Origin: Providencia sp. PROV188
Lineage (GTDB): Bacteria > Pseudomonadota > Gammaproteobacteria > Enterobacterales > Enterobacteriaceae
NCBI RefSeq assembly: GCF_027595165.1
Contig: NZ_CP097291.1
Span: 2,046,001 to 2,110,000, forward strand
DNA: 64,000 nt
Direction of reading: 5' to 3'
The notes below the pieces were generated by a model. That model made no database searches and was not told the DNA's origin. It worked only from the letters and a program-made list of their open reading frames with translations. The first letter of the stretch is position 1. Each line of letters starts with the position of its first letter. The translations under genes and the position numbers were made by a program. Shown one piece after another: positions 59,815-61,344 of this stretch.

Positions 59815-59970
59815 TTAATTGTTAGAAAACACATACCCATTACCAAGCTTATTTAATGATGGCGTATCAAAGAAATAAATTGCACCAAGGACCGCTATAG
59901 TTAACACAGCCAAAATGAGTATGTTCTTATAAATAGTTACAACTAAACACTGAACTGTTTGCTTTTTCAT
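59815..59970 (-). CDS. Small hydrophobic membrane peptide with structured leader, copy 1
   Basis: 51 residues from ATG at 59970, AAGG 7 nt upstream. One membrane helix (NILILAVLTIAVLGAIYFF) with a basic N-terminus and a polar tail. The segment IYKNILILA resembles LYRNILSLA of the smaller gene at 61137. It is preceded by an 81-bp leader (59992-60072) shared with that gene and rich in hairpins. The arrangement resembles type I toxin loci, but no antisense RNA has been shown. No known family recognised. Confidence 0.55.
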   Translation of the reverse strand: MKKQTVQCLVVTIYKNILILAVLTIAVLGAIYFFDTPSLNKLGNGYVFSNN

Positions 59971-59991
59971 TAGTATACCTTGGGTAAATAT

Positions 59992-60072
59992 CCCTTGGAT
60001 ACCACATTTATTTTTAGATAAAAGCTTGCGGATGCAAGATTTGCTATTCATAGCAATGAGGTATGATTATTT
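59992..60072 (-). repeat. Conserved leader repeat, copy 1
   Basis: 81 bp about 90% identical by eye to copy 2 at 61265-61344. On the minus strand it forms two hairpins (TTGCTA..TAGCAA and CTTGC..GCAAG) and ends just before a small membrane-peptide gene. Confidence 0.85.
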
Positions 60073-60113
60073 CTTAACCTTAACACATCCATTTAAATAA
60101 ATACGATTTAAAT

Positions 60114-60140
60114 AAAAAAACCTCGTTGTAACGAGGTTTT
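60114..60140 (-). terminator. Terminator of the csp transcript
   Basis: On the minus strand AACCTCGTT / AACGAGGTT with a 2-3 nt loop is followed by seven Ts. It lies 21 bp after the YmcF-like ORF. Confidence 0.9.
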
Positions 60141-60160
60141 AAGTGCTATCGAAATATTAA

Positions 60161-60301
60161 TCAGCAAACTTTTGCTTTCATAGAGCTTTTGCAAAAAATG
60201 CATTTAGCGCCATGTGGATTATTTACTGAAATATCAAACTGTGACGTTCTATATTGAGATCCACTACAGCAAGGACATTTAAAGTACAGATAGACTTTTA
60301 T
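60161..60301 (-). CDS. YmcF/YnfQ-like cold-shock zinc-ribbon protein, AUA start
   Basis: 46 residues if started at ATA 60301, 7 nt past the csp stop codon. It reads (M)KVYLYFKCPCCSGSQYRTSQFDIS with a second cysteine pair CIFC, which aligns with the E. coli small cold-shock proteins YmcF and YnfQ (KFDLHFRCPCCHGSQYRTS) that follow csp genes and are reported to use a non-AUG start. No ATG, GTG or TTG lies at the aligned position. Longer in-frame starts would overlap csp and add unrelated residues. Four cysteines suggest a zinc ribbon. Confidence 0.72.
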   Translation of the reverse strand: MKVYLYFKCPCCSGSQYRTSQFDISVNNPHGAKCIFCKSSMKAKVC

Positions 60302-60308
60302 AGTGTCT

Positions 60309-60521
60309 TTAAAGCGCCACCACATGTCCTGCAGCAGGACCTTTTGCACCATTTTCAATGATGAATGAAACTTGCTGCCCCTCAATTAAAGATTTGAAGT
60401 TATCACTCTGAATTGCAGAGAAATGAACAAACACATCTTTAGAGCCATCAGCTGGAGTGATGAAGCCAAAACCTTTATCGTCGTTAAACCATTTTACTGA
60501 ACCAGTCATTGTATTAGACAT
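60309..60521 (-). CDS. CspA-family cold shock protein
   Basis: 70 residues, one cold-shock domain. RNP1 is KGFGFI (16-21) and RNP2 VFVHF (30-34); it starts MSNTMTGSVKWFNDDKGFGF like prophage-type Csp proteins. It acts as an RNA chaperone. AAAGGAA lies 6 nt before the ATG. A long leader with a cspA-like cold box lies upstream, and a YmcF-like ORF follows on the same transcript. csp genes are common prophage cargo (E. coli Qin carries several). Confidence 0.95.
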   Translation of the reverse strand: MSNTMTGSVKWFNDDKGFGFITPADGSKDVFVHFSAIQSDNFKSLIEGQQVSFIIENGAKGPAAGHVVAL

Positions 60522-60695
60522 AGAATTTCCTTTAATTTTTTAAGTTTGCCATAAGGCATATTAGGCTTGTTTTTTTATTTTTACTTATGGGAATTAATTA
60601 GAAGGAATTCGCAATGAAGGGTATCTTAGATAACGCTAAATGGTGAACGACTTTAAACTGACTAGCATAAATAGACCTGTACTTCCAAACCAGTT
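60522..60695 (-). promoter_or_regulatory. cspA-type cold-shock leader
   Basis: About 170 nt of untranslated leader. Near its 5' end (60674-60689) the sequence TTTGGAAGTACAGGTC resembles the cold box of cspA (TTTGACGTACAGACC). Further on, blocks matching GTTATC, GATACCC and ATTCCTT of the E. coli cspA leader occur in the same order, suggesting a conserved RNA thermosensor. Confidence 0.7.
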
Positions 60696-60785
60696 AAACC
60701 ATTAGGCCACACAAACACAATAATAGCAAATTTTATATTTCACTCTTTTGTCAGAAGAGCTTACTATTGATAGTATAAATGCAAA

Positions 60786-61019
60786 TTAAAAAGCCATATT
60801 TAGCGATTTATTTGAATACGTTATACCACTATTTATACAGCTAGAGCATATTTTTACAACTTCATAACCTGATTTTTTAGCCATTTTAATTGCTTGCATA
60901 GCATTTAAAAAGTTACCCAGATAAAATCTATTTACAGCTATAGGCATATTCTTACATCCAATCTTATGCATTTTATAACTACCCTGTGGTTCCATCATTG
61001 TCTGAATGTAATAGTTCAT
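60786..61019 (-). CDS. Small zinc-binding-type protein, H-x3-C ... C-x2-C family
   Basis: 77 residues. The pattern MHKIGCKNMP, FYLGNFLNAMQAIKMAKKSGY and VVKICSSC matches a widespread uncharacterised small family in which H-x3-C and a later C-x2-C pair probably bind zinc. A GGAGAAAAA ribosome site precedes the ATG. It lies among prophage cargo genes; function unknown. Confidence 0.65.
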   Translation of the reverse strand: MNYYIQTMMEPQGSYKMHKIGCKNMPIAVNRFYLGNFLNAMQAIKMAKKSGYEVVKICSSCINSGITYSNKSLNMAF

Positions 61020-61074
61020 TTTTTCTCCATTAAGCTATACCAGAGGAAGCACACTAACAATCCCCATCATCGAT

Positions 61075-61099
61075 GATTTTAAACCTCTGTTTTCAGAGG
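61075..61099 (-). terminator. Terminator after the 34-residue peptide gene
   Basis: On the minus strand CCTCTG-AAAA-CAGAGG is followed by TTTAAAATC, 38 bp after the stop codon. Confidence 0.65.
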
Positions 61100-61136
61100 C
61101 TAAATACCTTTTATTTCCGTGATCTGCAGAATAGTT

Positions 61137-61241
61137 TTACATCCAGTATACAAGTGAAAATGCAGCTAACAGTAATACAACTATTATTAAAGCATTTCCT
61201 GCAAGTGATAAAATGTTTCGGTACAATGTAGATAAATTCAT
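61137..61241 (-). CDS. 34-residue hydrophobic membrane peptide with structured leader, copy 2
   Basis: Starts at ATG 61241 with AGGGA 6 nt upstream and reads MNLSTLYRNILSLAGNALII followed by VVLLLAAFSLVYWM and a stop: one membrane helix. LYRNILSLA parallels IYKNILILA of the gene at 59815. The 80-bp leader upstream (61265-61344) is the close repeat of that gene's leader, and a hairpin terminator follows. Size, hydrophobicity and structured leader are those of type I toxins such as TisB or Ldr, but no sequence family is recognised. Confidence 0.55.
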   Translation of the reverse strand: MNLSTLYRNILSLAGNALIIVVLLLAAFSLVYWM

Positions 61242-61264
61242 AGGTAGTCCCTTAGGAATTACTT

Positions 61265-61344
61265 CCCTTGGATACCGCATCTATTTGTTAGATAAAAGCT
61301 TGCGAAAGCAAGATTTGCTTTATAGCAATGAGGTATGATTATTT
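61265..61344 (-). repeat. Conserved leader repeat, copy 2
   Basis: 80 bp matching 59992-60072. Core: AGATAAAAGCTTGCG, GCAAGATTTGCT and TAGCAATGAGGTATGATT on the plus strand. On the minus strand the CTTGC-TTTC-GCAAG hairpin is intact and the first hairpin is 2 bp shorter than in copy 1. Confidence 0.85.

Follow-up and report, generated by a model that had tools for sequence, protein, structure and literature searches.

A hydrophobic-peptide cassette with a structured leader and a tRNA-derived 3′ element in prophages and plasmids of Providencia

The window analysed here is a 64,000-nucleotide (nt) stretch of the Providencia sp. PROV188 genome (contig NZ_CP097291.1, positions 2,046,001 to 2,110,000 of the forward strand). 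On its minus strand it carries two copies of a small cassette, A and B, in which a structured 5′ leader (TLS1) precedes one or two open reading frames (ORFs) for single-transmembrane (TM) peptides. In cassette B the last peptide is followed by a tRNA-derived element (TLS2), which begins 7 nt behind the stop codon (Table 1). An earlier reading of the letters alone (the sequence-only reading) had proposed two paralogous hydrophobic-peptide loci with a shared hairpin leader in the same orientation, possibly a new type I toxin family. The repeated leader was recovered as described: leaders A and B lie on the same strand and are 90% identical (E = 3e-24 with a 241-base query taken from cassette A against the whole 4.02-Mb genome; the next-best match after leader B had E = 0.037). 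The ORFs of 34 and 51 residues behind them also exist at the positions that had been given, each preceded by a Shine-Dalgarno (SD)-like sequence seen by eye. The third peptide of 39 amino acids (aa), which has 42 aa when read from an upstream GTG, and the tRNA-like RNA behind it were absent from that reading.

Table 1 Features of the two cassettes and their neighbours in the window, in order of transcription.
Feature	Coordinates	Strand	Remarks
-10-like motif of cassette A, TATAGT after TG	61350..61355	-	hexamer 19 nt 5′ of leader; putative only
Leader A (TLS1), structured 5′ element with CCA end	61269..61336	-	alignment of 24 copies; cloverleaf drawing
Cassette A spacer, small hairpin and SD	61242..61268	-
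34-aa single-TM peptide, including stop	61137..61241	-	best 19-residue hydropathy 2.63
p77, 77-aa cysteine-containing ORF, recurrent neighbour	60786..61019	-	PHROG 4298 (function unknown)
csp, cold-shock protein gene	60309..60521	-	full-length cspA thermoregulator match 60311-60694
ymcF-like zinc-ribbon ORF	60161..60385	-	Pfam YmcF-like, E 1.3e-19, residues 32-69 matched; real start probably further inside this frame
Leader B (TLS1), -10 motif degenerate	59996..60064	-
51-aa single-TM peptide, including stop	59815..59970	-	best 19-residue hydropathy 2.46
39-aa single-TM peptide, GTG start, including stop	59678..59797	-	third family member; best 19-residue hydropathy 3.11
7-nt gap, stop codon to TLS2	59671..59677	-
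TLS2, tRNA-derived element, 78 nt, CCA end	59593..59670	-	ARAGORN; Rfam tRNA
psiE-family gene, 3′ of TLS2, recurrent neighbour	59122..59532	-

The leader is 68–70 nt long and, as had been claimed, better conserved than the peptides, with a mean column identity of 90% over 24 leaders against 39% over 21 peptides. A cloverleaf with a CCA end can be drawn for it in two versions of the T arm, which pair 96.6% and 97.8% of the cells in the 24 copies and contain 4 and 3 cells, respectively, that changed on both sides; the element is too invariant for strong covariation. Folded by themselves, leaders A and B are only moderately stabler than shuffled sequences (z -1.16 to -2.41). A -10-like hexamer, defined by a pattern that was picked after the sequences had been seen, lies at -17 to -19 from the leader in 23 of 26 copies and is missing from leader B, its counterpart in genome G017 and one copy in G020. 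On the 3′ side, structure prediction pairs the GG of the SD with the CC in the CCA end of the leader in 18 of 23 copies (probability 0.67–1.0) and with other positions in the spacer in the remaining five. Terminator-like hairpins were also seen in cassettes, by eye only. As an Rfam family the leader was rejected, since its matches were only weak: RAGATH-30, on the other strand, reached 19.9 bits against a gathering threshold of 59.5 (part of the model, E 0.049).

Behind the leaders, 21 peptides could be aligned as the single-helix family that had been proposed. They are mostly 34–51 aa long and contain a single hydrophobic stretch; residue 7 is a conserved tyrosine, and a tryptophan often stands close to the end. 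The motif (L/I)Y(R/K)NIL, said to be shared by the 34-mer and the 51-mer, is present as a string in both, yet the two are out of register when the family is aligned: LYRNIL of the 34-mer (residues 6–11) aligns with residues 6–11 of the 51-mer, which correspond to FYSRVL in a relative, while IYKNIL forms residues 13–18 of the 51-mer. Aligned as a pair, the two peptides share 38% identity across 29 columns and need a gap of 7 residues. Judged from its codons, the peptide is under purifying selection, as the ratio of non-synonymous to synonymous differences (pN/pS) among 22 copies was 0.04–0.72 in all same-length pairs that yielded a ratio; two further pairs had no synonymous difference and gave none. 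One G020 copy has no intact peptide ORF, and among the copies in a second genus one has ATA in the place of the start codon and another GTG. The 51-mer matched two protein clusters (51 and 78 aa), a 47-aa frame containing the 34-mer had no homologue in the protein database, and among 394 genomes of the order, the search for peptide relatives gave only the window's own genome and two weak matches, one to a frame of 82 aa and one to a frame of 445 aa. None of the three window peptides matched a Pfam or NCBIfam family at the curated cut-off, or any entry in PHROGs (E ≤ 0.01) or PADLOC (E ≤ 0.1). A sub-threshold Pfam match to the SpoIISA toxin (E 0.043, 14 of the required 27 bits) was disregarded.

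A small hydrophobic peptide and a structured 5′ untranslated region (UTR) characterise type I toxins such as Hok, TisB and Ldr, and the cassette is like them in both respects. As a type I toxin-antitoxin system it would encode a membrane-damaging peptide whose translation from the primary mRNA is blocked, with an antisense or trans-acting RNA as antitoxin. The single hydrophobic helix of 34–51 aa (best 19-residue hydropathy 2.46–3.11) and the predicted pairing of the SD agree with this, as do antisense promoter-like sites above chance in three of 22 copies (G20_53, G08_a and L093). In the other 19, sigma-70-like antisense sites over leader and ORF occur at chance level (100 shuffles each), which lends no support to the antisense control suggested by the sequence-only reading. 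An antisense -10-like site at the 5′ edge of the leader scores first or second in 10 of 22 copies, and transcription from it would run away from the leader. Unlike Hok, TisB and Ldr, the cassette yielded neither a toxin family above cut-off nor, in a search confined to promoter-like sites, an antitoxin RNA, and no antisense promoter was found to be conserved. We consider a type I system unlikely.

TLS2 was aligned without gaps in 20 distinct copies, omitting duplicates, a copy in G018 with a 9-base duplication and a truncated G020 copy. Its cloverleaf pairs 96.5% of 460 cells, and six pairs changed on both sides, a number reached in 2 of 500 shuffles, whereas none of the 500 reached the covariation score. 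All 11 columns taken as the tRNA core are invariant, and the CCA end is present in 19 of the 20 copies. By contrast with this core, only one of the seven anticodon-loop columns is invariant, and the triplets at the anticodon position (ATT, AGC, AGT, AAC, GAC and GAT) amount to no stable anticodon. ARAGORN calls TLS2 in 12 of 13 loci, and two copies scanned with the Rfam tRNA model at short range, that of the window and one other, scored 36.2 and 42.3 bits, respectively (gathering threshold 29); faster Rfam scans missed the TLS2 copies. Conversely, a model built for TLS2 gave 64.3 bits to the tRNA-Arg(UCU) of prophage Gifsy-1, 62.7 bits to that of PHB10 and 46.9 bits to the tRNA-Arg(UCU) of the window's own genome. 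On these comparisons TLS2 is tRNA-derived, and it seems to be a former phage tRNA that kept the tRNA shape and lost normal decoding.

Most Providencia copies of the cassette carry TLS2 behind the peptide. The element starts exactly 7 nt after the peptide stop codon in 21 of 22 copies and 14 nt after it in the other, across 13 different 7-nt spacers, differing peptide C-termini and all three stop codons (TAA, TGA and TAG); where two peptides are present, the gap is counted from the second. Other spacings vary, with six lengths from CCA to ATG (22 copies) and three from the -10-like hexamer to the leader (23 copies). In L101 and L122 the peptide, gap and TLS2 are kept and the leader model finds no leader. 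Together with the second-genus copies and cassette A, these loci show that the peptide is the common core and that each RNA element can be lost. TLS2-like scraps were seen by eye in the DNA 3′ of the peptide in cassette A (61082-61130) and in L093; the TLS2 model found no match in either region. A weak leader match (22.6 bits) lies at L048:7543-7605, immediately 5′ of the 39-aa peptide, which points to an origin of cassette B, with its two peptides, in two tandem cassettes.

The strongest rival explanation takes TLS2 for a passenger, an old phage tRNA-Arg beside the peptide moron that is decaying after the loss of its anticodon and plays no role in expression. Gifsy-1 and PHB10 carry the nearest relative found, a lambdoid tRNA-Arg(UCU) that occupies the same interval of the phage late region between Q and the lysis genes and has similar acceptor, D and T arms. 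These tRNAs keep the UCU anticodon and do not lie 7 nt behind a peptide of this cassette family, whereas the anticodon arm of TLS2 is longer and its loop scrambled. The truncated G020 copy, the duplication in G018 and cassettes devoid of TLS2 likewise show that the element can be lost. Against simple decay stand the core residues, which none of the 20 copies has changed although the anticodon loop varies, the changes on both sides of stem pairs and the nearly constant gap. On balance, a passenger appears rather unlikely.

The gap has also been weighed as the mark of a recoding or pausing signal, in which a structured RNA 7 nt past the stop slows termination or promotes readthrough or frameshifting. 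A gap of this size fits known recoding stimulators, and the zero frame stays open for at least 15 codons beyond the stop in all 17 copies checked. The extension, however, ends at different places (after 15–57 codons, and inside TLS2 in at least two copies), so that there is no conserved readthrough product, and the stop codon itself is not constant. Recoding strikes us as very improbable.

To follow the cassette beyond the window, a covariance model was built from 17 leaders. Among 24 Providencia genomes it found 17 copies at E < 1e-20 in 10 genomes, and the same 10 genomes carry 14 copies of TLS2. Leaders also stand 5′ of similar peptides in other genomes, as the sequence-only reading required. 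Any match at E ≤ 0.1 extends the count to 17 of the 24, those beyond the 10 being weak; of two that were inspected, one (G013) is apparently unrelated and the other (G014) shows a leader-like stretch in decay, followed by an intact peptide-like ORF. In the 394 genomes of the order, a strong match was confined to the window's own genome, with weak matches in 10 others (E 0.008–0.0008). A set of 392 genomes of the family gave strong leaders in four Providencia, including the window's own, and in two genomes of the second genus, as well as one further match (G765, E 5.5e-5); within the second genus, three of six genomes hold a leader copy. Of 72,556 plasmid records two matched the leader cassette, one from P. 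rettgeri and one from P. hangzhouensis, both with no annotated feature beneath the match. Nine stretches from named genomes with the leader pattern were all Providencia, and among IMG/VR proviral contigs the leader pattern occurred in 15 stretches and the TLS2 pattern in 14. A 511-base query against 50,697 phage records matched two places, both of them the tRNA-Arg genes of Gifsy-1 and PHB10.

The genomic context was compared for 29 cassettes, with at most five neighbours per side and some contigs being short. A Q-like gene lies within 4 kb upstream in 11 of them, and 11 have a holin or endolysin gene no more than 3.5 kb downstream; PHROGs confirmed the Q-like proteins for five loci, and for selected loci also RusA, holin and endolysin. 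These neighbours place the cassette in the interval from Q to the lysis genes where lambdoid prophages carry morons. PMC4104026 describes small RNA genes as morons downstream of the Q-dependent late promoter in Escherichia coli lambdoid prophages. Those small RNA genes share the insertion site and are non-coding, whereas the cassette encodes a peptide between two RNA elements. The window's own cassettes lie near a tail-fibre gene and a dinI-like gene. Furthermore, psiE follows 44–61 nt downstream in seven of the 29 cassettes and the 77-aa ORF 41 nt downstream in five. The psiE-family gene of the window (59122-59532) belongs to a PHROG of unknown function and seems to be prophage cargo here.

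Upstream, ymcF (at 100–143 nt) and, further away, csp precede 13 of the 29 cassettes. On the Providencia plasmids L074 and L075, csp, ymcF, the cassette, p77 and an lpxL/lpxP-family gene occur together in what looks like a cold-adaptation island. The leader might accordingly be a cold-responsive switch that controls the peptide by temperature within a csp/ymcF cold-shock island, a reading with which the directly adjacent csp-ymcF pair and the lpxL/lpxP-family gene about 1 kb from the cassette on both plasmids are consistent. Some cassettes have no csp nearby, however, and in 23 copies the predicted exposure of the SD shifted by no more than 0.1 across temperatures from 10 to 42 °C. An RNA thermometer is thus unsupported in silico, and we regard temperature control as very unlikely.

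We consider the anatomy of the cassette firm: the sequences show the peptide family with its coding selection, the conservation, the descent of TLS2 from a tRNA, the nearly constant gap and the moron setting. The mechanism that we infer is tentative. The cassette may be a small mobile moron of lambdoid prophages and plasmids in Providencia, found also in a second genus, in which the RNA elements keep peptide output down by masking the SD and by cutting of the tRNA type. Transcription would start from the -10-like motif just 5′ of the leader, and the leader would hold translation low, since its CCA end is able to pair with the SD. The peptide would act within the lysogen's inner membrane, serving in stress or in lysogenic conversion, and might inhibit growth if overproduced. 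TLS2 would be a tRNA-shaped cutting site at whose 5′ end RNase P cleaves, freeing a short message from the downstream RNA. This cutting may be coupled to translation termination, because the 7-nt gap sets the site at the leading edge of the terminating ribosome. In E. coli mRNA-tRNA transcripts such as secG-leuU, RNase P likewise has to detach a tRNA from the coding region that precedes it; that tRNA functions in decoding, whereas TLS2 is not a normal decoder. RNase P is reported to cut tRNA-like structures, some mRNAs and C4 of phages P1 and P7 (PMC11143913). C4, a phage RNA that is not a tRNA, is an antisense regulator, whereas TLS2 sits 3′ of a peptide gene.

Several observations weigh against this explanation. 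With a simple sigma-70 score, the -10-like site is the best upstream sense site in just 11 of 22 copies, so that its case rests on conservation and not on strength. Neither Rfam (E ≤ 10) nor ARAGORN recognises the leader as a tRNA, which rules out a true tRNA and leaves its cloverleaf as a drawing only, and in a longer transcript its acceptor stem has a predicted probability above 0.5 in only five of 23 copies. Shuffled sequences bury the SD as well: its mean unpaired probability is 0.10 against 0.17 in shuffles, and in only five of 23 copies is the burial matched by at most 5 of 100 shuffles. SD masking is therefore a lead and not a result. In TLS2 itself, the innermost pair of the anticodon stem fails in 11 of 20 copies. 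Moreover, the TLS2 model found no match behind the leader-peptide copies of the second genus or behind cassette A, which indicates that TLS2 is dispensable. Finally, the constant gap is evidence of constraint and not proof, as the copies are related by descent and may in part have inherited it.

It may further be speculated that the cassette, its message placed between an SD-masking CCA end and a tRNA body that no longer decodes, senses tRNA metabolism, its peptide output being set by how much of the host tRNA-processing machinery (RNase P and CCA-binding enzymes) is free, an extension that we rate as quite unlikely. If it were true, the cassette would react to cutting or flooding of the tRNA pool by phage infection or stress and would represent a new class of RNA-controlled prophage effector. 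Irrespective of this, TLS2 suggests that a phage tRNA can give up decoding and become the 3′ element of a small-protein gene, with its body kept and its anticodon released. Whether tRNA-processing enzymes control bacterial mRNAs is a long-standing question, which so compact a natural unit would make testable, and the cassette adds a family to the peptides of prophages and plasmids. Each of its ingredients, namely phage tRNA, moron, tiny membrane peptide and mRNA-tRNA transcript, has a known counterpart. We met no description of the combined unit in the literature, which was covered mostly at the level of titles and abstract openings and does not imply its absence in print.

Three other features of the window were recorded. 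The dinI-like gene (61738-62088, Pfam DinI) is preceded by two CTGT-N8-ACAG sequences, inverted repeats that by eye resemble LexA boxes. Between it and the prophage tail-fibre gene lies a full-length gene of the chloramphenicol acetyltransferase (CAT) family (62177-62830, Pfam CAT, E 1.3e-98). On the plus strand, positions 33135-33222 match the small RNA CyaR with 76 bits.

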